Of a stretch of DNA of 30,655 nucleotides, positions 3,257-25,314 are shown piece after piece. The notes under the pieces are model-generated. The model was not told the DNA's origin. It worked only from the letters and a program-made list of their open reading frames with translations, and searched no databases. The stretch's first letter is position 1, and every line of letters begins with the position of its first letter. The stretch comes from a virus, in IMG/VR virus record IMGVR_UViG_3300028372_000031, positions 1 to 30,655 of that record; one strand, written 5' to 3'. The translations under genes and the position numbers were made by a program.

Positions 3257-3269
3257 CCAAAGAGAAGTA

Positions 3270-3296
3270 GCCGGGGCTTTCCCCGGCTTCTTTTTG
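3270..3296 (+). terminator. Rho-independent-type terminator
   Basis: The stem GCCGGGG/CCCCGGC (3270-3276 with 3281-3287) has a CTTT loop and is followed by TTCTTTTTGG. It ends the unit of tail genes and metallophosphoesterase. Confidence 0.9.
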
Positions 3297-3302
3297 GTTT
3301 TC

Positions 3303-3316
3303 ATGCAATACTGCAT
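3303..3316 (+). promoter_or_regulatory. Small post-terminator hairpin, candidate phage promoter element
   Basis: The stem ATGCA/TGCAT (3303-3307 with 3312-3316) has an ATAC loop, directly after a terminator and about 10 nt before an AAGGAG ribosome-binding site. A similar hairpin with an ATACC loop lies after another terminator at 10812-10830. N4 virion RNA polymerase promoters are hairpins, which makes a promoter plausible, but their loops are normally 3 nt, so this is only a suggestion. Confidence 0.3.
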
Positions 3317-3337
3317 CACTCATACAAGGAGAACCAA

Positions 3338-3367
3338 ATGAAACGCTTTATTCAGAAGACGCCCTAG
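3338..3367 (+). CDS. Nine-codon ORF with good ribosome-binding site (possible leader peptide)
   Basis: AAGGAGAACCAA precedes ATG 3338. The reading frame encodes MKRFIQKTP and stops at TAG 3365-3367, inside the 5' arm of a 7-bp hairpin. The ribosome-binding site is as good as those of the real genes nearby. A ribosome here would disrupt the hairpin and the closing stem of the RNA at 3351-3467, as a leader peptide would. It may equally be the stub of a deleted gene. Confidence 0.35.
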   Translation: MKRFIQKTP

Positions 3368-3467
3368 CGTGGAGCTAGGGTCTGATTATTAGCACTGAGA
3401 GTACCTTATTCCTCCTACGGAATGACCAATCGTGTTTAAGGGGCGGGTCCTAATCCGCAATTCTGAA
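3351..3467 (+). ncRNA. Candidate structured noncoding RNA, four-way-junction shape
   Basis: A 7-bp closing stem TTCAGAA/TTCTGAA (3351-3357 with 3461-3467) encloses three local hairpins: CCCTAGC/GCTAGGG (3362-3368 with 3374-3380, 5-nt loop), ATTCC/GGAAT (3408-3412 with 3419-3423) and GCGG/CCGC (3443-3446 with 3455-3458). A strong terminator follows at 3482-3512 and another precedes it at 3270-3296, so the segment could be transcribed as a discrete RNA of roughly 150-200 nt. No credible long reading frame covers it, and no tRNA T-loop is present. The pairings were found by eye; neither transcription nor function is shown. Confidence 0.45.
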
Positions 3468-3481
3468 CATTGTTGGCATAG

Positions 3482-3512
3482 CCCCCGCTGAAAAGCGGGG
3501 GTTTTCTTTTTT
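3482..3512 (+). terminator. Rho-independent-type terminator
   Basis: The perfect 8-bp stem CCCCCGCT/AGCGGGGG (3482-3489 with 3494-3501) has a GAAA tetraloop and is followed by TTTTCTTTTTT. No protein gene longer than nine codons ends here, which is the main argument for an upstream noncoding RNA. Confidence 0.92.
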
Positions 3513-3586
3513 GATGATCTGTCACGAATTGACGGAGGCCGATAGTCCAGAGGGACAAGACTCCCCTGACATTCGGGGCAGACATC
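3513..3586 (+). promoter_or_regulatory. Structured 5' leader of the rIIA-like gene
   Basis: Between the terminator and the rIIA start lie 117 nt without a gene. Local hairpins are GTCA/TGAC (loop CGAAT, 3521-3533), GTCC/GGAC (loop AGAG, 3545-3556) and CCCC/GGGG (around 3563-3578). They are loosely closed by GATG-AT-CTG (3513-3521) with CAG-A-CATC (3579-3586). The segment must hold the promoter or leader for the rIIAB unit. No convincing sigma-70 pair is seen. The overall fold is weak evidence because most stems are only 4 bp. Confidence 0.3.
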
Positions 3587-3629
3587 ACATGAAATTTGAT
3601 TACTTACCGTGAAAAGAAGGAACAAAACC

Positions 3630-6230
3630 ATGAGGGTAATGAATAATGATCAGTTCAGTCAGAATGAAGTATTCATTGGCGGAGCTGGAAAAACCAAAGG
3701 CTTCAAAGTCTCTGATGACCCCATGCTGATGTCGATGCTTTCGACTGGCTTCTATGCCAACCCACACAGGGCCATGATCCAAGAGGTCATGTTCAATGCT
3801 TGGGATGCTCATCGTATGGGCAAATGCCAAGACAAACCCATCGACATCTTTGTTGATGAGCACTCTGGTTTCACTGTCCGTGATTATGGTCCGGGCATTG
3901 CTGATCACATGATGGAAGATGTTTACTGCACCTACGCAGCATCCACCAAACGTGATGATGCAGACATGACTGGAGGCTTTGGCCTTGGTTCAAAGGCACC
4001 GTGGTCCTACACAGAGAGCTTCACAGTCACTTCCCACCATGATGGTGTGAAGACCATGTATCTCATGAGCCGTGTCTCTGACGAGGCTGATGGTAAGCCG
4101 GGGATGACTCCACTTATGAGCTTCCAGACAGATGAGTCTGGTCTGAGTGTCAGTGTTCCTCTCGAAGAGGGATCCTTGCACAACACCAAAAATACCATCT
4201 ACGACGTGCTGTATCTCTCTGGGATTAAAGCACAACTTCACTTCAAAGATTGTGAACCAACTTTGGTCGAATCCATGGATGTGAAACCAAAGCAGTATGT
4301 GATGGATACCCGTGAGGGAGACTTCACCAAAAAGCTTTATGCTGTCTATGGTGGTGTGCGTTATCTCATCCCTCAAAAAGATGAATATAAAGAAGAGTTC
4401 CAGTTCATGAACATGATCTCGGAAATCTCATCTATCTACATCGGCTTTGCACCTCACACTCTCAGTCCTCTTCCCAATCGAGAAGGTCTGAACATGTCTA
4501 CCAACACGAAAGAAAACATTCGTGTAGGTCTGGAGCTGTGCATGGAACGCTTCCAAGAAGTGTTTGACCCTGTCATCCATGCGTACTTTCGTGACCGGAT
4601 GGACAACTACAAAGCAGGTGAGGTTCAGCCTCAGTTTGCTCTGTTTCATGCGATTGCACACAACAGTATGGGTACATCATTCATGCAGAAGTTCTACGAC
4701 AAAATGAAGCCACTGCTTCCACCGAACACAGACAAGACTGTGTGGGAGATTGCTCTTCGTCTGATGACAAAGTCGATAAACTCTATCGTCAAAGTCATTG
4801 GTGAAAAACGTTGGATGTCTATCTTGGTTCAACACTTTATTCGTGTGTATCCAGATGCAAAGCATCTTGGATTCAAAATGATGAAGGAAGATCCTGAAAA
4901 GATGATCGGGAATGAATTCCGACATATCAGTTATCTGAATGATCTCATTGCTTCATGGACCATGCCTCAGCAGTTGTCTCGACTGTATGAGTTTGAAAAC
5001 CAGCTTCTGAAGGACTTTCCTGAAGATGCTGGGTTCGTTCGTCCAAAGATTCGTTTGCAATCTGACTCGGACTGGCCAACCATGGAGCGTCACCGTAATG
5101 CCCCTAAAGGCATTGGTCATCGGTATGCTTACCGTTCCACCCGGAACATTGGAAGCAAAGTCATTGCTCCTGTGGTGAATTTCATTGATCCTAATTCTAT
5201 TTGGGACTCCAAAGAAGCCAAACCACAAGAACAGCTTCTCATGGGGGATACTGTGATTCTGGCCAAAACTGTGAACGCTCTGCGTGAAACTGATATTTCT
5301 CAGAATGCACATTTCTCAAATGATTTTCGTTACATCTTTGACTACTATCGGAGGAGTAACTTCGGAATCATTCCAGCTTACGTCGTACACTCTCGCAAGG
5401 GATGGTATGACAAAGCTCTGGAGATTCTCACCAACCTTGGTTTCAAAGTTATTGAGGCTAATGAACCAGAAGTGAAGGTTTACAACAAAGGTGCTGTAAA
5501 GAAAGCAACTGTTAGCCAGTTCCGGAGAATCAACACTTCGACTAACAATTGGCAAATGAACGAGATCGACCCTGACGATAAGGATTATGACGTCCTATCT
5601 CAGGGTACTCCTTTGACTGATCCCAAATACTTCCTCTACGTAAAGCAGTCCTATCTTGAGGACGACTACTACCGTCGTTATTCATCCAACAAACCCTGTA
5701 AAACTCTGGTGAAACTGATGCTTGCAATCGAACCAGACATCGCAATGGTGAACAACACCACTCAAGCAGAAAAACTGCAAAAAGATGGTGTGAAACCGTT
5801 CAGTGATCTGGTGATCAAATGGTCCAACGACATGAGCAAAAAGGTCTATCGTTTGCGTAATATAGTCCGTGTTATTAAAGTGTTGAATGAATCCAACATC
5901 TCCAACGTTCTCATTGGGAATGCTCAAATTCAGTCTGCTATGGGTATCGCACGGATCAAAGAAGATGATGCTGCTTTCTGGAACGAAATGGACATCATCA
6001 ATGTGATCAAATCCGAGTATTACTACCCTCTCTTGGATACCACCAAGCAGATGATTAAGCTCATCGACCAAATCTGGGTGGATGATCCTCAAAAGAAGAA
6101 GGTCGAAAAAGCTATCAAGGCCACTGATCTTCTTTCAGAGACCAAGCTGGACCATCATTGGCGTGGACTCGACAAGACGGGGCAAGAAGACTTTGCCTCT
6201 AAACTAGCCCGGTTTATCCGGACCCTGTAA
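3630..6230 (+). CDS. rIIA: rIIA-like GHKL ATPase
   Basis: I chose ATG 3630 (866 aa), 8 nt after AGAAGGAA; an in-frame GTG at 3609 has no ribosome-binding site. The GHKL (gyrase/Hsp90/MutL) ATP-binding motifs are clear: the N box EVMFNAWDAHR (about residues 52-62), the G1 box VRDYGPGI (about 84-91) and the G2 box GGFGLGSKAPW (about 115-125). The following 700 residues lack recognisable motifs, as in T4 rIIA. T4 rIIA and rIIB act together in lysis timing and let T4 grow on lambda lysogens that carry rexAB; rII-like pairs also occur in N4-like phages. The rIIB-like gene follows after 21 nt, supporting a joint function. Whether this pair blocks host exclusion here is inference. Confidence 0.88.
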   Translation: MRVMNNDQFSQNEVFIGGAGKTKGFKVSDDPMLMSMLSTGFYANPHRAMIQEVMFNAWDAHRMGKCQDKPIDIFVDEHSGFTVRDYGPGIADHMMEDVYCTYAASTKRDDADMTGGFGLGSKAPWSYTESFTVTSHHDGVKTMYLMSRVSDEADGKPGMTPLMSFQTDESGLSVSVPLEEGSLHNTKNTIYDVLYLSGIKAQLHFKDCEPTLVESMDVKPKQYVMDTREGDFTKKLYAVYGGVRYLIPQKDEYKEEFQFMNMISEISSIYIGFAPHTLSPLPNREGLNMSTNTKENIRVGLELCMERFQEVFDPVIHAYFRDRMDNYKAGEVQPQFALFHAIAHNSMGTSFMQKFYDKMKPLLPPNTDKTVWEIALRLMTKSINSIVKVIGEKRWMSILVQHFIRVYPDAKHLGFKMMKEDPEKMIGNEFRHISYLNDLIASWTMPQQLSRLYEFENQLLKDFPEDAGFVRPKIRLQSDSDWPTMERHRNAPKGIGHRYAYRSTRNIGSKVIAPVVNFIDPNSIWDSKEAKPQEQLLMGDTVILAKTVNALRETDISQNAHFSNDFRYIFDYYRRSNFGIIPAYVVHSRKGWYDKALEILTNLGFKVIEANEPEVKVYNKGAVKKATVSQFRRINTSTNNWQMNEIDPDDKDYDVLSQGTPLTDPKYFLYVKQSYLEDDYYRRYSSNKPCKTLVKLMLAIEPDIAMVNNTTQAEKLQKDGVKPFSDLVIKWSNDMSKKVYRLRNIVRVIKVLNESNISNVLIGNAQIQSAMGIARIKEDDAAFWNEMDIINVIKSEYYYPLLDTTKQMIKLIDQIWVDDPQKKKVEKAIKATDLLSETKLDHHWRGLDKTGQEDFASKLARFIRTL

Positions 6231-6251: not shown

Positions 6252-7715
6252 ATGGATAAGAATATCAAATCTGTGGTGTCTATGTTGGCCAGTGACAAGA
6301 AAACTACCTTGTTCACTGCAACAGGTGAGGTCATCGACATGGTTGTCGATGGCCCATATGACACCGCTTTAATTGCTGACTTTCTGACACCCCAGCTTAC
6401 TGGGACTCGGTCTGTTGACATCGACCTGTCGGAATTCCTTGCAGTGAAATCTGCACTGAATCTGAAAGAACTGGAAGAAGCCGGTATCGAGATGACTCAA
6501 ACCATTGACGGCCAAACAGTCCAAGGGATCTTCTATCCTACGGTTTCATCTGTTGTGATCACTGTCAATTTTGACAAGGTCGTCATCCCTCATGTGGACA
6601 ATCTCCAGGCCCACATGGCTCGTGCAGCTCAGGATGGCAGCCCATCGGTCACGAACTTCTTCAAACGTCTGGCTCCTATCATCCAGGCCCGGAAACACTC
6701 CGGTGAAGATCTGATGAAGTTCATCAAGAAGTCGGAGATGCCTCTGACCAATACCGGTCGGATCATCGCCTACAAGCGTGTGACATCTGTTCGTGAAGAA
6801 CCAGGATACGTCGTGGATACCCATTCCAAGAAAATCAAACAGCGTGTTGGCTCTCGTGTCACCATGCCGGTTGATATGGTGGATCCAAGCCGTCACAAAT
6901 CCTGCTCGACCGGTCTTCATGTGGCCAATCTAGGTTATCTGGGCGGCTTCTCAGGCGACAAGACACTTATCGTGTTGGTTGACCCCGAAAACTTCATCGC
7001 TGTTCCCAGTGGGGAGGATATGAAGGCTCGTGTGTGTTCCTATGACATCATCGGGATGATGAGTGCAAACTCACACTCAACTGCGAACAAAGGCAACCAT
7101 GTTTCTGGTGATCAGACATTCGAACAGCTCATTGTTGATGCTGTTGAAGGTCGTTCGATCATTCCCTTCGAAGAAGTCTTCGTGGGAGAGAAAGAGATCA
7201 CACATGTGAATCTCCTTAAGCGTACTGTACCAACAGCACAGCCTGAGTCGAAAAATCCGACATCAGGCAAGTCTCTGGCTGAGGATCCTACTCCTGAGCA
7301 ACGTTCTCGTGGTACTCAGACTTTGACGAAAGCACGGGATGCCAAAGCCAAAACGCTGAATCCTGAAACCAATGGTCTACCCAAAAATGTCTATGACGCA
7401 TTCCTTATGCTGAAAGACAACAAAACCAAAGCTGCTGTTGCAGAGTTTTTTAATACTTCGACTCGTTCGATCGGTCGTTGGATGGAAAAGCATGGCTTCG
7501 ATAGCTTTGAAGAAACCCAGAAGAATGCGACTGTCTCTGAAGTCGCAGAAGACACCGGTGGTAAAGCAACCATTCGTGATCAAGCTCGGATGTTTTTCGA
7601 TGCTGGCTCGTATGCAAAACTCTGGGAGTTCAAGACCAAGAAGAAGAAGTCTTGGCTTGCCCTTGGCTTCACTGGTCACGAAGAAAATGTGATCGTCGCC
7701 AACAAACCCACGTAA
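6252..7715 (+). CDS. rIIB: rIIB-like protein with C-terminal helix-turn-helix
   Basis: The start at 6252 is preceded by AAAGGAAAA; the product is 487 aa. The rIIB core is recognisable as a block with IIAYKRVTS near residue 172, KSCSTGLHVANLGYLGGF near 216-233 and FIAVPSGEDMKARVCSYDIIG near 249-270, in the same order as in T4 rIIB. T4 rIIB is only about 310 residues. The extra C-terminal part holds a low-complexity linker and a probable HTH at about 377-416 (AAVAEFFNTSTRSIGRWMEK), then a basic KTKKKK patch. The gene pairs with rIIA directly upstream and ends with a terminator 30 nt later. The HTH suggests DNA contact; this is inference. Confidence 0.85.
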   Translation: MDKNIKSVVSMLASDKKTTLFTATGEVIDMVVDGPYDTALIADFLTPQLTGTRSVDIDLSEFLAVKSALNLKELEEAGIEMTQTIDGQTVQGIFYPTVSSVVITVNFDKVVIPHVDNLQAHMARAAQDGSPSVTNFFKRLAPIIQARKHSGEDLMKFIKKSEMPLTNTGRIIAYKRVTSVREEPGYVVDTHSKKIKQRVGSRVTMPVDMVDPSRHKSCSTGLHVANLGYLGGFSGDKTLIVLVDPENFIAVPSGEDMKARVCSYDIIGMMSANSHSTANKGNHVSGDQTFEQLIVDAVEGRSIIPFEEVFVGEKEITHVNLLKRTVPTAQPESKNPTSGKSLAEDPTPEQRSRGTQTLTKARDAKAKTLNPETNGLPKNVYDAFLMLKDNKTKAAVAEFFNTSTRSIGRWMEKHGFDSFEETQKNATVSEVAEDTGGKATIRDQARMFFDAGSYAKLWEFKTKKKKSWLALGFTGHEENVIVANKPT

Positions 7716-7747
7716 TTGGGAGTCCGGATTCTACGAGCCGGACACAA

Positions 7748-7786
7748 AACCCCCTGGATCTATATGATCTGGGGGGTTTTCTTTTT
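7748..7786 (+). terminator. Strong terminator after rIIB
   Basis: About 13 bp pair between 7748-7760 and 7766-7778 (AACCCCC with GGGGGTT, plus GATC with GATC), with a TATAT loop and a TTTTCTTTTT tail. A separate 6-bp hairpin, GTCCGG/CCGGAC (7722-7727 with 7738-7743), lies just upstream, between the rIIB stop and the terminator. Confidence 0.9.
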
Positions 7787-7864: not shown

Positions 7865-8431
7865 ATGTTTAAGATCGGAGACGTAGTACGTCTCAACCGT
7901 GGTTGGTGCCCCATGATCGTCCTCAACGTGGACGAAATGGGTGTATGGGCAGTCTATGCTCGTCGAACCAATGAATACCACATTACTCGCTGGCATTACG
8001 CTAATTGGCGTGAGGCTCATTCTTACAACCGTCCATCTTCAGGCTTCACTGCTTGGGATGGAGTACCCATCAACCCAGATTGGAATTTCATCATGCCACG
8101 TCGTTATCGCGCTATCAAAGGCCCAGCATTCGCAGGGATCTACATGAACACCACTTCAGCAGGGGACATGGTCCTTGAACTGGACAACGGTGAAGTAAAG
8201 GTCTTCAAACCTCATCATCTCGAAGAAGACATCCCCGACACATTCCGTGTCAAAGCCACGGCGAACAATTACTCGTGCCACTACGAAGTTCCCCCTGGTG
8301 TTGACATTAAAGTCAACGATGTCCTGATCTCTGATTCGTCCAACGTCTACGTTGTGATGGAAACCGAGACCAAAAACCGTAACCCCAAAGGCGTCTTCAA
8401 AGGTCGTCGTGTGGTAACGGAGGTCTTGTAA
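7865..8431 (+). CDS. Unrecognised protein with N-terminal SH3/KOW-like segment
   Basis: This encodes 188 residues, starting at ATG 7865 after AGGAGAG. The first 25 residues (FKIGDVVRLNRG, then MIVLNVDEMG) resemble small beta-barrel modules that begin FKxGDVVxL. A similar GVDIKVNDVLISDSSNVYVVME segment near residues 145-170 suggests a second such barrel. The middle is rich in aromatic and basic residues. It is the first gene after the rIIB terminator, so a promoter should lie in 7787-7850, which is AT-rich but shows no clear consensus. Function unknown. Confidence 0.7.
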   Translation: MFKIGDVVRLNRGWCPMIVLNVDEMGVWAVYARRTNEYHITRWHYANWREAHSYNRPSSGFTAWDGVPINPDWNFIMPRRYRAIKGPAFAGIYMNTTSAGDMVLELDNGEVKVFKPHHLEEDIPDTFRVKATANNYSCHYEVPPGVDIKVNDVLISDSSNVYVVMETETKNRNPKGVFKGRRVVTEVL

Positions 8432-10858: not shown

Positions 10859-11716
10859 ATGCAGAACAACCCCTTTCCCCAACCAATCTGTGACCAAATC
10901 TGGAACGACAAGTACCGTTTGATTACACCGAACCTGGACATCCGCAACGATAACAGCGTGCAAGACACCTGGGATCGTATCGCTCGTGCTTGTGCAGGAG
11001 ATGACCAAGAGCTGTACAACTTTTTGTACAGTGCTCTGGAAGACTTCAAATTCCTTCCAGCCGGTCGGATCACAGCAGGTGCTGGCTCCGGACGAAACGT
11101 TACCCTCTTCAACTGCTACGTGATGGGTACAATCCCTGACTCAATGGGTGGTATCTTTGACATGCTCAAAGAAGCAGCACTCACCATGCAGCAAGGTGGT
11201 GGTATCGGTTACGACTTCACCACACTGCGTCCTAAAGATAGCCCAGTCAAAGGCGTCGATGCTGATGCCAGTGGTCCTCTGACCTTCATGAATGTTTGGG
11301 ACGCCATGTGCCGCACTGTCATGAGCGCAGGCAGCCGTCGTGGTGCCATGATGGCCACCATGCGATGTGATCACCCTGACATCGAAGATTTCATCACAGC
11401 CAAGAGCGATACCAACCGTCTCCGGATGTTCAACGTGTCTGTTCTTGCAACTGATGAGTTCATGTCTTGTGTTGAAAACGATGCAGACTGGCCTCTAATG
11501 CACGAAGTCCCACCTGCTGAACCAGTGACGTGGAACAATGTGACTCAGATCAATGGCAAGCACATCTACAAAGTGATTCGTGCCAAGGATCTGTGGGAAA
11601 CCATGATGAAATCCACCTACGATTATGCAGAGCCAGGTGTCCTGTTCATCGACCGTATCAACAACATGAATAACCTCCACTATTGTGAGGACATTTCGGC
11701 GACAAACCCATGTGGT
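10859..11716 (+). CDS. nrdJ: Class II (B12-dependent) ribonucleotide reductase, exon 1
   Basis: This encodes residues 1-286 of a protein that would be 792 residues after splicing. ATG 10859 follows AAGGAAG. The family core is evident: FLPAGRITAGAG, then VTLFNCYVMG with the first active-site cysteine, QGGGIGYDFTTLRP and GSRRGAMMATM. The exon ends exactly in the active-site motif NPCG, whose Cys is the thiyl-radical residue. Unspliced, translation would add only Met-His and stop at 11723-11725, giving an inactive fragment. The enzyme reduces ribonucleotides to deoxyribonucleotides with adenosylcobalamin and needs no oxygen or second subunit. It feeds the replication genes downstream. Confidence 0.93.
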
Positions 11717-12558
11717 ATGCACTAGTTTGCCTCATGTAAAACATCCTGTGAATTGCTGGAAATCTGAAAAGACAATCAGCAGCCAAGCCCCTTCATAGGG
11801 GAAGGTTCAGAGACTACAGGTAAACCAAGAAACCTCTTCCAAAGGAAAAGTGTTATGACAATTACAGCGAAAGACATCAAGAAAATCATGCTTGGTATCG
11901 TCTTATCAGATGGTTCTATCGACCGCAAAAACCAAAGATTTGAGTTCTATTCCAAGAGCAAAAACTTTACGGATTTTGTGTCCGATGTTCTGTCTGAAAT
12001 TTCAGGCGTTATCGTTAGCTACAGATACGATGCCAAAAACGATGGTCATCGTATCTGGACACGCAAGCATCCCTACTTCAAAAATCTTGGAGAAGTTTGT
12101 TATTCCTCTTCCAGAAAAGAGCTTAACAAATACAACGTATCAAGACTTGATCTTATGAGTATTGGTATGATGTGGATGTGTGATGGTTATCTTGAACATG
12201 CTTTGAATCGCAAAACCAATAAAGTCCAAAATATCGGATGGTTTTGTCTTGAAGCATTCCCCAAAAAAGAACTTGAGTTGTTTCAAAAACAACTTTTGTC
12301 TTTTAATATTGGTTCTTCTCTTGTGAAGAAGCCTTGGGGATTTGGGTATCGTATTCGTATCGGCGGTGAGAATCTTCAAAAATTCATCTCTGCTGTGTAT
12401 GATTATGTTCATCCAGATTTTCGCTATAAAACAATTCTCTTCTATAAGACAGAAAAGAATTTTGACATGGGTTTACCGAGTGCAGGACACATCTTTCAAC
12501 AATATGAAAGCTGTGAAGATATAGTCCGACACCCTTTGAGAAAAGGGAAAACATAATG
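11717..12558 (+). ncRNA. Group I intron in nrdJ (842 nt)
   Basis: Both splice sites can be placed. The exon end CATGTGGT pairs with the internal guide GCCTCATG (11729-11736) with one mismatch, putting a U-G pair at 11716. The intron ends in G12558, the usual terminal guanosine. The conserved core is visible: P (AATTGCTGGAAA near 11751), Q (AATCAGCAGCC near 11774), a P5/P6-like hairpin CCCCT/AGGGG, R (GTTCAGAGACTA, ending 11816) and S (AAGATATAGTCC, 12516-12527). P7 pairs GACTA (11812-11816) with TAGTC (12522-12526), and a P9-like hairpin CCCTTT/AAAGGG follows. Removal restores an uninterrupted NPCGEQPLPPYG frame. Confidence 0.93.
11855..12556 (+). CDS. Intron-encoded LAGLIDADG homing endonuclease
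   Basis: This encodes 233 residues starting at ATG 11855 after AAAGGAAAA. Two LAGLIDADG motifs are present: MLGIVLSDGSI (about residues 12-22) and IGMMWMCDGYL (about 103-113), each ending in the catalytic Asp, so a single chain can form the whole active site. The gene lies between the R and S halves of P7. Its last 14 codons run through S and P9, and its stop ends 2 nt before the 3' splice site, so coding and ribozyme sequence overlap. It is AT-rich relative to nrdJ. It probably cuts intron-less nrdJ at the NPCG-EQ site. It may also aid splicing, as some LAGLIDADG proteins do; that is inference. Confidence 0.93.
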   Translation: MTITAKDIKKIMLGIVLSDGSIDRKNQRFEFYSKSKNFTDFVSDVLSEISGVIVSYRYDAKNDGHRIWTRKHPYFKNLGEVCYSSSRKELNKYNVSRLDLMSIGMMWMCDGYLEHALNRKTNKVQNIGWFCLEAFPKKELELFQKQLLSFNIGSSLVKKPWGFGYRIRIGGENLQKFISAVYDYVHPDFRYKTILFYKTEKNFDMGLPSAGHIFQQYESCEDIVRHPLRKGKT

Positions 12559-14079
12559 GAACAGCCGTTGCCTCCATATGGTGCATGTCTCCTTGGTTCA
12601 GTGAACCTTGTGAAGATGGTTGATGGTCCCTTTGAAAAAAGCCCAATGGTAAATCAAAGTCGTTTGGAAGAAACTGTTCGTGCTGCTGTTCGTTTGCTCG
12701 ACAAAGTCATCGACATCAGCAACTTCCCTATCCCTGAGCAGAAAGCTGAAGCCCTGTACAAACGTCGTATGGGTCTGGGTATCACTGGCCTCGCTGACAT
12801 GTTGTTCATGATGAACCTCAACTACAATTCCCAAGACGGGATCAACCTTGCTGAACTTGTGATGAAGATCATCGCCATCACTGCTTACGAAGAGTCGATC
12901 GAATTGGCCAAAGAGTTTGGTCCATGCCCAGCGACTGAAACCAAAGAGCAGCGTGAAGCATTCTGTAAGTCCGGCTTCATGAAGCAGATGCCAGAGCACA
13001 TCCACCTTGGTGTGATGGAGCATGGTATTCGTAACGCTTTGCTAACTTCGATCGCACCTACTGGAACAATCTCTCTCTATGCTGGTAACGTCAGCTCAGG
13101 GATCGAACCTGTTTTTGCACCCAGTTACACCCGTAAAGTCCTTGAGAAAGATGGATCCAAGCGAGAAGAACTGGTCGAAGATTACGCCGTCAAACTCTAC
13201 CACGAGTGGCGTGAAAACATTGGCATGGATAAAGAGTCTAACCCACCTCACTTGGTGACAGCTCAGACTCTTGATCCTTTGGATCACATCCTGATGCAAT
13301 CGGCTGTTCAAAAGTGGGTGGACTCTTCAATCTCGAAGACCATCAACGTCCCTGAAGACATCTCGTTCGAAGACTTCGAGCGCGTGTACACCGACGCCTA
13401 TGGTATGGGCTGCAAGGGATGCACAACCTACCGGCCAAACGAAGTGACAGGTTCAGTTATTTCCATCGAGAAAGATGAACCAGAGAAGACAGACGAAGCA
13501 CCTGAGCGGGTCGGGTTCATCAGAAATAAAGTTAATGGGGAATATAAATACATCCCCGTTCGTGAAGATGATGATCCAACACCTCGCCCAGACACTCTGG
13601 ACGGCTCCACCTACAAGATCAAATATGGGCCTGATGCTGTCTACATTACCATCACCGATATTGAAGAAAATGGTGTCACACGACCGTTCGAAATCTTCAT
13701 CAACTCGAAGAATATCGAGCACTATGCTTGGACTATCGGCATGGCCCGGATGATCTCATCCATCTTCCACCGTCCTCACAACAGTCACTTCGTTGTGCAG
13801 GAACTGAAGGAAGTCTTTGACCCCAAAGGTGGGGCATGGATGAAGCAGAAATATGTTCCATCTCTGCTGGCTGCCATCGGTGGCGTCATCGAAGAACACA
13901 TGATCCGCATCAACTATGTGGAAGGGTATCCTGCAATCCTTCCTGAAGCGGATGAAGAAACCCCAGTGATCGGTATGAAGGCAGTGCCCAGCGCCTGCCC
14001 TCAGTGCAAAGGTTTTAACGTTCATCTCTCAGGTGGCTGCCCAGTCTGTGCTGACTGTGGTCACAGCAAATGCGGATAA
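12559..14079 (+). CDS. nrdJ: Class II ribonucleotide reductase, exon 2
   Basis: This encodes residues 287-792, continuing NPCG with EQPLPPYGACLLGSVNL. Family landmarks include RRMGLGITGLADMLF, LLTSIAPTGTISLYAGNVSSG with the substrate phosphate-binding PTGTIS, KTINVPEDISFEDFERVY and AYGMGCKGCTTYRP. The tail from about residue 765 holds cysteine pairs (CPQCKGF, CPVCADCGHSKCG), matching the C-terminal redox/zinc tail that re-reduces the active site in class II enzymes. An ATG at 12556 looks like a start but belongs to the intron's last codon position; exon 2 proper begins at 12559. The stop is followed by a structured segment and a terminator. Confidence 0.93.
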   Translation, partial: EQPLPPYGACLLGSVNLVKMVDGPFEKSPMVNQSRLEETVRAAVRLLDKVIDISNFPIPEQKAEALYKRRMGLGITGLADMLFMMNLNYNSQDGINLAELVMKIIAITAYEESIELAKEFGPCPATETKEQREAFCKSGFMKQMPEHIHLGVMEHGIRNALLTSIAPTGTISLYAGNVSSGIEPVFAPSYTRKVLEKDGSKREELVEDYAVKLYHEWRENIGMDKESNPPHLVTAQTLDPLDHILMQSAVQKWVDSSISKTINVPEDISFEDFERVYTDAYGMGCKGCTTYRPNEVTGSVISIEKDEPEKTDEAPERVGFIRNKVNGEYKYIPVREDDDPTPRPDTLDGSTYKIKYGPDAVYITITDIEENGVTRPFEIFINSKNIEHYAWTIGMARMISSIFHRPHNSHFVVQELKEVFDPKGGAWMKQKYVPSLLAAIGGVIEEHMIRINYVEGYPAILPEADEETPVIGMKAVPSACPQCKGFNVHLSGGCPVCADCGHSKCG

Positions 14080-15483: not shown

Positions 15484-15653
15484 AAACTAAAATCACAATC
15501 AGCAAAGACACTGCAAATACACTCTATGCTGTTATCTCACAAGTCATTGATGAAGAACTCAATTTTCCATCTCACAGTGATAAATGGATGACCCAAATGT
15601 TGGAAGCTCAAACAGCTATTGGTGAAGCTGATCTTATCGTTATTGGAGATTGA
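15480..15653 (+). CDS. Small hypothetical protein between helicase and polymerase
   Basis: This encodes 57 residues: ATG 15480 overlaps the helicase stop, and its TGA (15651-15653) is two bases before the polymerase ATG. The sequence is acidic and probably helical (ISQVIDEELNF, WMTQMLEAQTAIGEADLIVI), with no known motif. Tight coupling on both sides argues that it is real. A fork-associated accessory role would fit the location but is not shown. Confidence 0.65.
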   Translation: MKTKITISKDTANTLYAVISQVIDEELNFPSHSDKWMTQMLEAQTAIGEADLIVIGD

Positions 15654-15655
15654 AA

Positions 15656-17731
15656 ATGAGATATGAAGTCATCGGCAACTCTGCAAAAGATCCTCGAATC
15701 TGTATCTTGGTTCCACGCATCCAGACAGCAGAGGTGCAGAAGCATTACTACCAACCTCACCTGCTTGCTTTGGGTGAGAGCATCATGGTTGCCGATCTCT
15801 TCATGGATGAAACCAAGAAGAAAAACTCTGCTGCTGACATGAAAGAATATCTCGATGATCTTCTGCCAAATCTCAAGGCAGAAGGCATTGAAATGTTGGT
15901 TGTCACTCAACCAGATTACTTCAAAATCCTGTCGAAGAAAGCCAAGACAGATGCCACCATTGGTGATTACTTTGTCTCTGAATATGACAAGGACTTCACC
16001 ATCACCTACTGTCCAAATTATGGACGGATCTTCTATGATCCTGACAAGATGAAGGCAAAGATTGGTATGGCACTGGAGTCCACCAAACGGTGGGCAGCAG
16101 GCAATTCCACAGTGGTTGGATCGAACATCATTAAGTTCGCAGACTACCCTACCAAAGAGAATGACATCCTAGACTGGCTCGACAAGCTCTTGGCTATGGA
16201 CTGTGATCTCACCTGTGACATCGAAGGCTTCTCTCTGAAGCATTATGATGCAGGAGTTGGGACCATCACCTTCTGTTGGAATGAACATGAAGGGATAGCC
16301 TTCCCTGTAGACTCAGACAACAATCCTATGGATGGTCAGAAGTCTGGTCGAAAAGAAAACCAGAGAATCAAAGCAGCTCTCCGAGATTTCTTCTATGCTT
16401 TCAAACGAAAGATGATCTACCACAACATCTGCTACGACGTTTATGTCATGATTTATCAACTGTTTATGGATCACATCCTTGACCAAGAGGGTCTCCTCGA
16501 AGGTCTCGACGTGATGCTGAAAGACTGGGACTGCACCCAGATTATCACCTATCTGGCAACCAATTCCTGTGCTGGTAATGAGCTGGGTCTCAAGATCCAA
16601 GCACAAGCATTTGCTGGAAACTATGCTCAGGAAGACATCCATGACATCCACCTGATCTCTCTACCAGATCTCCTACAGTATAACCTGATTGATGGACTCT
16701 CCACATGGTATGTCCACAACAAAAATCTGCCAATTATGTTGGCTGACAATCAGGACATTCCTTACCAGACGTTGTTCAGACCAGCAGTGATCGACATCAT
16801 TCAGATGCAGCTCACAGGTATGCCTCTCAACATGTCCAAAGTGAAAGCCTTGGACAAACTTCTTCAGAAAGAATCCACAGATAATCTGAATAAGATGAAC
16901 AACCTTCAAATCGTATGGTCCTTTATGGACACACTGCGAGATGAAAAAGTCATCGAGAAGAATGCCAAGCTCAAAACCAAAGTGATAACCAAGGCTGATC
17001 TTGGTCTCACCAAAGATACAATCGTAGAGTTCAACCCCGGTAGCCCTAAGCAGCTACAGCGGTTCCTTTATAATGAAGACTTCCTTGGTTTGCCTGTGTT
17101 GGATTACACAGACACCAAGCAGCCTGCCACAGGTGCTGAGACATTGGAGAAGCTGATCAATCACACCAAGGATCCCGAAGTGATTCGGTTCTTGGAGATC
17201 CTGATCGAGTACAAAGCCAGTGCAATTATCCTCTCAACCTTCCTTCCAGCTTTTCTCAAAGCTCAGAAAGGCAACGATGGGTGGCATTATTTGTTTGGAA
17301 ACTTCCGACTCGGAGGGACAGCATCTGGTAGATTGTCCAGCAACAATCCCAACCTACAGAATATCCCTTCTGCTGGGTCTACAAAGATCAAACAAAGACT
17401 TGCCAAGCTCATCAAGGAGTGCTTTGAAGCACCTCCCGGATGGCTGTTTGTTGGTTTGGACTTCGACTCTCTGGAGGACAAAATCTCAGCAGTCACGACC
17501 AAAGATCCAGAGAAGATCAAGGTCTATACTGATGGGTTCGACGGCCACTGTCTTCGTGCATTGGCTTATTTCAAGGAGCACATGCCTGACATCGAACTCC
17601 TTCCCGAAGGAGCCACAGCTTACAAAGCTGTGGTCGATGGCAAACAGATCTATTTCCACAGTGATGAGGAGATAGAATATCAGGGTCAAACGATGCTCGG
17701 TTCAGAGCTAGTAGCCCAACTAAACAAGTGA
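15656..17731 (+). CDS. DNA polymerase A family, N-terminal part (exonuclease and motif A)
   Basis: I chose ATG 15656 with GGAG at 15645-15648 (691 aa). The proofreading 3'-5' exonuclease has exo I LTCDIEGFS (about residue 187), exo II HNICYDVYV (about 257) and exo III YNLIDGLSTWY (about 342). The polymerase part has RLSSNNPNLQNIPS (about 558-571) and motif A GLDFDSLEDKISAV (about 599-612). The frame then stops at 17729-17731, about 75 residues after motif A and before motif B, so it lacks the fingers helix and the second catalytic Asp. These are in the gene at 18199-18945. The polymerase is thus encoded in two pieces with a Tad2-like gene between. N4 gp39 is the single-chain counterpart. Confidence 0.92.
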   Translation: MRYEVIGNSAKDPRICILVPRIQTAEVQKHYYQPHLLALGESIMVADLFMDETKKKNSAADMKEYLDDLLPNLKAEGIEMLVVTQPDYFKILSKKAKTDATIGDYFVSEYDKDFTITYCPNYGRIFYDPDKMKAKIGMALESTKRWAAGNSTVVGSNIIKFADYPTKENDILDWLDKLLAMDCDLTCDIEGFSLKHYDAGVGTITFCWNEHEGIAFPVDSDNNPMDGQKSGRKENQRIKAALRDFFYAFKRKMIYHNICYDVYVMIYQLFMDHILDQEGLLEGLDVMLKDWDCTQIITYLATNSCAGNELGLKIQAQAFAGNYAQEDIHDIHLISLPDLLQYNLIDGLSTWYVHNKNLPIMLADNQDIPYQTLFRPAVIDIIQMQLTGMPLNMSKVKALDKLLQKESTDNLNKMNNLQIVWSFMDTLRDEKVIEKNAKLKTKVITKADLGLTKDTIVEFNPGSPKQLQRFLYNEDFLGLPVLDYTDTKQPATGAETLEKLINHTKDPEVIRFLEILIEYKASAIILSTFLPAFLKAQKGNDGWHYLFGNFRLGGTASGRLSSNNPNLQNIPSAGSTKIKQRLAKLIKECFEAPPGWLFVGLDFDSLEDKISAVTTKDPEKIKVYTDGFDGHCLRALAYFKEHMPDIELLPEGATAYKAVVDGKQIYFHSDEEIEYQGQTMLGSELVAQLNK

Positions 17732-17738
17732 GAAACCA

Positions 17739-18206
17739 ATGGATACCTATCTAGGATCTCTGGCAGTCAATGCCAAACCAATGACACGACAGGAGTACAA
17801 CAACCTTCGTGGTTGGACACTCCCCGATGATGAAGACGGCAATGATGCTGGATACCTTGTCGAAGATCTGGTCACTGATCACATCAACTGGCAGCCCAAA
17901 GCTGTCTTCGATGAACTCTTCCACAACAGTGGTAACATGACTTTCAGTGATGCACTAGAGATCGTGAAGCGTGGTGGTCGTGTCTCTCGTTCCGGCTGGA
18001 ATGGGAAGAACATGTTCATCTTCCTGGTTCAAGGTTCCACATTCACAGTCAACCGTGAGCCTCTCATCTCGATTCTCGGTGAGGGTACAGAGGTGAACTA
18101 CCACGGCCATGTGGATATGCGTACAGCAGACGGGACGATTGTTCCTTGGCTTTGTTCGCAGACAGACATGCTGGCCAATGACTGGGGCGTCGTACCTGAT
18201 GCTTAA
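17739..18206 (+). CDS. Tad2-like (DUF2829) anti-Thoeris candidate
   Basis: This encodes 155 residues starting 7 nt after the polymerase stop, with a weak GAGAAA upstream. From residue 67 to the end it reads as a full DUF2829 domain: MTFSDALEIVKRGGRVSRSG, WNGKNMFIFLVQGSTFTVN, then EGTEVNYHGHVDMRTADG and IVPWLCSQTDMLANDW. DUF2829 includes Tad2, a phage protein known to sequester a cyclic-ADP-ribose signal of Thoeris defence. Residues 1-66 form an acidic extension (TRQEYNNLRGWTLPDDEDG) seen in longer members of the family. Anti-defence function in this phage is inference from the family. Its last 8 bases overlap the start of the polymerase C-part. Confidence 0.88.
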   Translation: MDTYLGSLAVNAKPMTRQEYNNLRGWTLPDDEDGNDAGYLVEDLVTDHINWQPKAVFDELFHNSGNMTFSDALEIVKRGGRVSRSGWNGKNMFIFLVQGSTFTVNREPLISILGEGTEVNYHGHVDMRTADGTIVPWLCSQTDMLANDWGVVPDA

Positions 18207-18945
18207 AATCACTGGGGAAGTCGATGAGATTTCCTCAGTAGGCACGAGCGAACACAATGTCGCTCGTGTCAATTCCATCAAGAAGTTGTATCCAGTTTGG
18301 AGACAGGAGTCGAAAGCTCCCACGTTCGCCCTGACCTATCAGGGTACATACGTGACTCTGATGGCAAACTGTGGCTTCACATCGCAGTTGGCTAAGTCAA
18401 TCGAGGCCAGCTATCACAATCTGTACCACGTCTCTGACAAGTGGGTTGCAGATAAACTGGAACAAGCCTGTAAGGATGGCTACGTCACTCTCGCTTTTGG
18501 TTTACGTCTCCGGACTCCCCTGCTGAAGCAGGTGGTGCTTGGAACCAGTAAGACACCCTATGAAGCAGCAGCCGAAGGACGCACAGCAGGCAACGCCCTG
18601 GGTCAATCCTACTGCATGTTGAACAGTCGTGCTGGTACTGAATTTATGAAGACTGTTCGTTCCGGTCCCTATCGGTTGGACATCAAACCATGTGCTCAGA
18701 TCCATGATGCAGGATATTTCCTCATCAAAGATGATATGGAAGTGCTGTTGTATGCCAACAAGCATTTGGTGAAAGCTGTGAGCTGGCAGGAACTTCCTGA
18801 AATTCAAAGCGAAGACATCAAAATGAGCGGGGAACTGTCGATCTTCTTTCCAAACTGGAAGAATGAAATGACCATCCCCAACAACGCAACCATCGCTGAT
18901 GTCCAAACCTGCATCACGAAACATCTGGAGACACTCAATGGTTAA
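18199..18945 (+). CDS. DNA polymerase A family, C-terminal part (motifs B and C)
   Basis: I chose ATG 18199 (248 aa), which overlaps the end of the Tad2-like gene by 8 bases; earlier in-frame starts would lie inside that gene. Motif B is RQESKAPTFALTYQG (about residues 35-49), with the dNTP-binding Arg and Lys and the terminal YQG in place of YG. Motif C is AQIHDAGYFLI (about 166-176), with the catalytic HD. Together with motif A in the upstream gene, all parts of a family A palm and fingers are present once, and no region seems missing. The two products must associate to make an active enzyme, or the split allele is non-functional. It overlaps the next gene by 8 bases. Confidence 0.88.
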   Translation: MLKITGEVDEISSVGTSEHNVARVNSIKKLYPVWRQESKAPTFALTYQGTYVTLMANCGFTSQLAKSIEASYHNLYHVSDKWVADKLEQACKDGYVTLAFGLRLRTPLLKQVVLGTSKTPYEAAAEGRTAGNALGQSYCMLNSRAGTEFMKTVRSGPYRLDIKPCAQIHDAGYFLIKDDMEVLLYANKHLVKAVSWQELPEIQSEDIKMSGELSIFFPNWKNEMTIPNNATIADVQTCITKHLETLNG

Positions 18946-25215: not shown

Positions 25216-25314
25216 GGGGACATAGTTCAGCGGTAGAACAAGTGATCGAAGAGACCTTCTGCTCAAACCAGATAAGTGATCGCCAAGGCATGGGTTCAAA
25301 TCCCATTGTCTCCA
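25216..25314 (+). tRNA. Oversized tRNA-like element, possible tRNA-Leu (CAA)
   Basis: The ends are those of a good tRNA: acceptor GGGGACA (25216-25222) with TGTCTCC (25307-25313), TA, D arm GTTC-AGCGGTA-GAAC (25225-25239), and T arm ATGGG-TTCAAAT-CCCAT (25290-25306), then A; no CCA. Between the D and T arms are 50 nt, against about 23 in a class I tRNA and roughly 30-40 in a long-variable-arm tRNA. A hairpin TCTG-CTCAAAC-CAGA (25258-25272) gives anticodon CAA with U33 and A37. The 9-nt AAGTGATCG occurs on both sides of it (25240-25248 and 25274-25282). Either an inserted or rearranged tRNA or a tRNA mimic; the anticodon is uncertain. Confidence 0.65.

Follow-up and report, generated by a model that had tools for sequence, protein, structure and literature searches.

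Titrating RNAs of the CsrB, RsmY, and RsmZ kind are short and terminator ended and carry several copies of a hairpin-borne recognition element, a GGA in a hairpin loop that is the element of CsrA or RsmA. In the coat protein/operator hairpins of MS2 and Q-beta, the protein site lies on a stem with one unpaired A on its 5' side and is completed by the apical loop. Structured phage RNAs have also been described near terminators (put of HK022) and, through comparative analysis, as large noncoding RNAs (GOLLD, in Rfam). To our knowledge, few noncoding RNAs are known from strictly lytic phages. Our search of the open-access literature on noncoding RNA in N4-like phages (Schitoviridae) returned nothing relevant and no record for N4-like roseophages.

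Here, we describe a locus in a 30.7-kb fragment of a marine N4-like (Schitoviridae) phage (the window, that is, the whole stretch of DNA analyzed). PHROGs recognized rIIA (3609-6230), rIIB (6252-7715), an HNH endonuclease, ribonucleotide reductase, DNA polymerase, and primase in the window. Its closest cultured relatives are roseobacter Schitoviridae, with up to 71% identity in the primase and about 32% in rIIA, and a DNA similarity search against cultured phages returned only terminator hairpins and weak matches. Agrobacterium phage JP1 was checked and gave no match better than these.

Two genes of the window are interrupted. The ribonucleotide reductase gene lies in two parts (10859-11725 and 12556-14079), split by a 233-amino-acid (aa) open reading frame (ORF; 11855-12556) without a match in the compared phages, and this insertion (11725-12556) resembles that of an intein or an intron-borne homing endonuclease. 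The DNA polymerase frame is split as well (15650-17731 and 18109-18945), around a 155-aa ORF (17739-18206) that is possibly another inserted element (17731-18206).

Results

A gene-poor unit between two terminators

Upstream of rIIA, the original prediction had placed a gene-poor unit between two strong intrinsic terminators (3297-3512), and terminator and ORF scans confirmed this arrangement. The upstream terminator (3269-3288, + strand, with its tail to about 3296) ends the phosphoesterase/small-ORF unit and sets the 5' boundary of the putative RNA; related phage contigs L045, L046, L048, and L057 have a terminator at the equivalent position relative to the conserved module described below. 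The downstream terminator, claimed at 3482-3512, was found at 3480-3503 on the + strand with its tail to 3512. It would form the 3' end of the RNA and adjoins the intact module, which is directly next to a terminator in L045, L046, and L057 also. Together with a site at 7746-7780, these two are the top three + strand terminator candidates in the first 12 kb, and the longest + strand ORF between them has 19 aa, whichever start codon is allowed.

The strong terminators of these phages have a common junction, CTTTTT(T)G[AG]T, directly 3' of the hairpin (window positions 3290, 3506, and 7781; L121 positions 12491, 11996, and 7671; L127 positions 3679 and 3466), which might be a combined terminator and phage polymerase start signal. 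Immediately 3' of the upstream terminator lies a 14-nucleotide (nt) inverted repeat, ATGCAATACTGCAT (3303-3316, + strand), which may be either a 5' hairpin or part of a promoter. The same motif, ATGCAATNNTGCAT, holds the same position in L046 (4700) and L047 (6609) and was not found in L045, L048, or L057. The L047 version reads ATGCAATCACGCAT, and a protein gene follows there instead of the RNA.

Folded as a whole, the 216 nt of the unit reach -74.6 kcal/mol against -54.5 +/- 4.6 kcal/mol for shuffled sequences (z = -4.41; 0 of 200 shuffles as good). The hairpins that had been spotted by eye are real, at 3361-3381, at about 3405-3424, and, as an inner hairpin, near 3442-3457. The four-way junction proposed from them is unsupported, since its closing stem is about 50% probable and its layout is not kept in relatives. 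This stem pairs 3326-3333 with 3504-3511 in the minimum free energy structure (mean pair probability, 0.48), joining purines of a ribosome-binding site to the U-tract of the terminator, and is itself not conserved.

A search of 3297-3512 against Rfam 15 gave no family at the gathering threshold, in keeping with the statement that the RNA was of no recognized family; the matches were sub-threshold only, at E <= 5, and fell mostly onto the terminator hairpin. In the window, only tRNA genes elsewhere reached the threshold, and neither an ARAGORN cloverleaf nor the Rfam tRNA model identified the unit as a tRNA or transfer-messenger RNA. The Rfam tRNA at 25216-25314 (+ strand, 99 nt, 50.1 bits) was not reported by ARAGORN.

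A leader-peptide attenuator had also been considered, on account of a 9-codon ORF (MKRFIQKTP*, 3338-3367, + strand) behind a ribosome-binding site, AAGGAG (3326-3331, + strand). The peptide is not conserved: the homologous slots hold M* in L046, MIR* in L048, and no such ORF in L045 and L057, and thus no conserved leader ORF with regulatory codons. Nor did we find a conserved antiterminator pairing. GGGGC of the window (3437-3441) could pair with the terminator arm, where the L045 counterpart is GGAGCGG against CCCUAUC, and the terminator stem (3480-3512) has a mean pair probability of about 0.94. With a gene downstream that varies among carriers in addition, attenuation by a leader peptide is unsupported.

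A bulged-stem module with compensatory changes

What the relatives conserve is a bulged-stem module that the earlier reader had missed. Its layout is a lower stem, a bulged A, 4 bp, UCG opposite UUG or UUA, an upper stem, and a variable cap. The core consists of a U-G or U-A pair, a C x U mismatch, and a G-U pair, the 4 bp becoming 5 if U-G is counted. The element was first read in the slots of L045, L046, and L048 as GUG-A-CCAR-UCG ... UUG-YUGG-CAC, with R and Y covarying.

The window has a single intact copy (3422-3479, + strand), recognized by covariation, a covariance model match, and its fold. Its lower stem, AUG/CAU, is followed by the bulged A at 3425, by CCAAU (3426-3430) paired with GUUGG (3472-3476), by the C3431 x U3471 mismatch and the G3432-U3470 pair, and by an upper stem (3433-3436/3466-3469) that leads to an inner hairpin, CGGGU-CCUA-AUCCG. 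With the last module of L045 and L046, this copy shares a further conserved inner loop and hairpin, UAAGG..CGGRU-NNUA-AUCCG..AUUCUG, and the three form a subtype. Seven copies each fold alone to one shape, and their caps are wholly different from one another, with the exception of the inner hairpin common to the last copy in three phages. The inner core of the C-type module, considered as a wider family, proved to be confined to three phages. Folded alone, the intact window module is modestly better than its shuffles (z -1.54), and the case for it therefore rests on comparison.

Two other hairpins of the window resemble the module in part. The stretch at 3345-3393 (+ strand), a putative second module, contains the hairpin with a GUGGA loop at 3361-3381 and folds with a z of -4.12. 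Comparison with L046 4912-4986 aligned its 3' arm, UUAUUAGCACUG, to UUGUUGGCACUG in module B of that contig. It lacks the bulged A and the UCG core and is probably a decayed module copy. The rIIA leader (3513-3608, + strand) holds a hairpin (region 3513-3583) with a bulged A, GAUG-A-UCUGUC, that has a module-like outline but no UCG/UUG core; we treated it as separate and did not count it as a module. Its counterpart in L046 (5173-5252), GGUG-A-UCUGUC, has one changed lower-stem pair.

Together with the window, relatives collected via the upstream phosphoesterase and via rIIA yielded nine intact modules from five related phage contigs, with one to three in each. The folding and covariance check that the original prediction had proposed found compensatory changes, and these are in the module pairs. 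Among the nine copies, 94.8% of cells pair, both-sided changes are present in 13 of 15 pairs, and the covariation score is 0.726 against 0.274 when shuffled (0 of 500 match) and at most 0.209 when slid, all figures that are biased upwards by two L057 copies selected partly for pairing. For the seven copies first recognized by sequence, the score is 0.498 against 0.187 when shuffled. Only six bases of the module are invariant, namely, A12, UCG (17-19), and UU (32-33).

L057 is a 76-kb contig with a 47% identical rIIA, directly before which two modules lie in 190 nt between terminators. These diverged copies were noticed by eye and then recovered by a descriptor in which A....UCG and UU[GA] are the only fixed bases and everything else is a requirement for pairing. 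Applied to both strands of 23 phage loci (508 kb), this descriptor gave six matches, every one of them in the slot and on the + strand, compared with 0 or 1 on shuffled sequence. When 1.87 Mb of phage contigs was searched, the matches with a lower stem of at least 5 pairs were the same six, all in the slot; two further matches with the minimum of four pairs look like chance. When the trinucleotide or the bulge of the descriptor was changed, each variant gave between 0 and 7 matches over the same 1.87 Mb.

Outside the module core, G-U combinations outnumber A-C combinations by 8 to 1, and in the window module the minus strand does not fold (z +0.65). Taken together, these observations indicate that the functional form is + strand RNA, in the same sense as the surrounding genes.

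Distribution of the module

Every contig of the nearest clade, the window and four others whose primase is at least 78% identical, carries modules, a sample that amounts to five contigs from one clade. In each carrier the modules reside in the corresponding intergenic slot and nowhere else on the contig, and the more distant relatives tested, Rhodovirinae included, gave no modules. Since L045 and L048 have the module and no rIIA or rIIB on their (incomplete) contigs, while L049, L050, and other phages outside the clade have rIIA and no module, the module is not a leader dedicated to rIIA. Carriers differ in the gene that follows the slot, and comparison of the contigs, which are incomplete, found no protein exclusive to carriers. 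L048 has one module, about 20 nt 5' of a small ORF's ribosome site, and the next strong terminator comes only at 8102; an mRNA leader would thus include the module in this phage. L048 is the main awkward case for a stand-alone RNA.

Those exact-pattern matches to several module versions in IMG/VR and GTDB that were examined outside the carriers fell in ORFs, mostly long ones, and were treated as chance. The same applies to a covariance model match in Ruegeria phages V12 and V21 (L007 and L068; 16.9 bits), which lies inside a coding gene.

A tRNA-like element lies 5' of rIIA in L004 (5963-6124) and L005 (5606-5730), the same records as L049 and L050. Its acceptor has 7 bp, its T arm reads ACAGG-TTCGAAT-CCTGT in L004, and it has a discriminator and an encoded CCA; an AAGUC/GACUU stem resembling that of an anticodon arm encloses about 60 additional bases. 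The element escaped ARAGORN, and the Rfam tRNA model scored part of it at 16.3 bits.

Comparison with described RNA classes

Like the CsrB, RsmY, and RsmZ RNAs, the unit would be a short, terminator-ended RNA with a repeated hairpin-borne element. The fixed bases of the module, however, are in a stem bulge and an internal loop, and the repeated GGA in hairpin loops of a CsrB/RsmY-type sponge was not found: RUGGA loops occur in only two of the nine intact modules (L046-B and L045-A; GUGGA/AUGGA) and in the decayed window copy. With the MS2 and Q-beta operators the module shares the single 5'-side unpaired A of a protein site, putative in this case, whereas its apical part is free and the UCG/UUG internal loop 4 bp away is fixed. 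The unit resembles HK022 put as a structured phage RNA near terminators, but the L048 and L045 locations do not fit, and we know of no sequence common to the two. It resembles GOLLD as a structured phage noncoding RNA found by comparative analysis, yet is far smaller, modular, and without an Rfam match at the gathering threshold. A search for near-identical tandem repeats beside a toxin gene, as in type III toxin-antitoxin RNAs (ToxI-like), found caps that differ completely among copies and neighbors that are phosphoesterase, rIIA, or other genes.

Discussion

The original prediction is borne out in part, and the structured phage small RNA is its better-supported half: strong covariation, noncoding content, the adjacent terminator, and the lack of an Rfam match favor it. 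The relatives give no support to the four-way-junction fold, the conserved unit being instead a tandem bulged-stem module. A fixed two-sided core, a free helix, varying caps, one to three copies, and the usual terminator end are most simply explained by a protein-docking RNA. Variable caps around such a core would be expected of a protein-binding site rather than of an antisense RNA.

The reading that we favor, with about even confidence, is a stand-alone, terminator-ended phage RNA of conserved modules that presents sites for an RNA-binding protein, which the RNA sequesters or scaffolds. Positions 3297-3512 would encode this noncoding RNA, presumably transcribed separately, and one to three module copies would each offer the same recognition surface. 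That surface would comprise the 5'-side unpaired A, four base pairs of any sequence, and UCG opposite UUG or UUA, with the hairpins beyond it free to vary. One host or phage RNA-binding protein may dock there and be held, possibly by a decoy action, in the middle phase of infection. Titration or scaffolding is our best guess for the activity, and the single intact copy weakens a titration role in the window phage.

It is unlikely, in our estimation, that the module is instead a cis-acting mRNA element for processing, stability, or translation control in the 3' untranslated region or leader of the flanking transcripts, such as a T7-like hairpin of the RNase III type. Phage RNase III sites are irregular duplexes with internal loops between genes, which the modules look like, and the L048 copy does sit in a small-ORF leader. 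Processing sites, however, are spread over gene junctions, whereas up to three modules stand in tandem in one slot and none elsewhere. RNase III needs no fixed bases, yet the A, UCG, and UU are invariant, and a cis role also fits poorly with the changing downstream gene.

We give little weight to an RNA antiterminator of the HK022 put kind, in which the nascent module would make polymerase read through the adjacent terminator into rIIA. The module does lie within a few bases of a terminator in four phages, and between two terminators, but in L048 no strong terminator is nearby and in L045 there is no rIIA to serve. The polymerase for the middle genes of N4-like phages is presumably a single-subunit enzyme of the phage, a setting unlike that of put, which makes host RNA polymerase read through terminators.

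Equally improbable is a DNA-level element, a single-strand hairpin extruded to serve in promoter recognition, replication, or attC-like recombination. The promoters of the N4 virion polymerase, which are DNA hairpins, provide a precedent, and in its imperfect inverted repeat, extrahelical base, and variable end the module recalls integron attC sites. The AAC/GTT core boxes of attC are absent from the stem, though, and every lower-stem position varies; the 8:1 wobble tolerance is one-stranded, and we saw no integrase or cassette array.

The least credible alternative is that a protein gene (MKRKP... as in L047) once stood here and left a remnant, the hairpins being chance or terminator debris. 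It draws on a mini-ORF that starts ATGAAACG behind a ribosome site, like the 65-codon ORF of L047 and a 25-codon ORF over L046 module B. For the module, covariation strongly disfavors this alternative, as compensatory changes keep the pairing across five phages, and L057 has the module as well. Such an origin may still apply to the mini-ORF.

Returning to the protein-docking RNA, we suggest, tentatively, that the bulged-A and UCG/UUG stem could be a new protein-recognition motif, through which a dedicated decoy or scaffold RNA captures a host or phage RNA-binding protein for host takeover or counter-defense. The module falls in no Rfam family and none of the known classes tested here; if our inference is right, it would define a CsrB-type or operator-type binding RNA with a new motif. 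The strong comparative support, the compact six-base core, and an obvious mutant design (bulge, UCG, and UUG) make the partner directly searchable. Should that partner come from the host, its identity would reveal a target of takeover or defense in marine bacteria.
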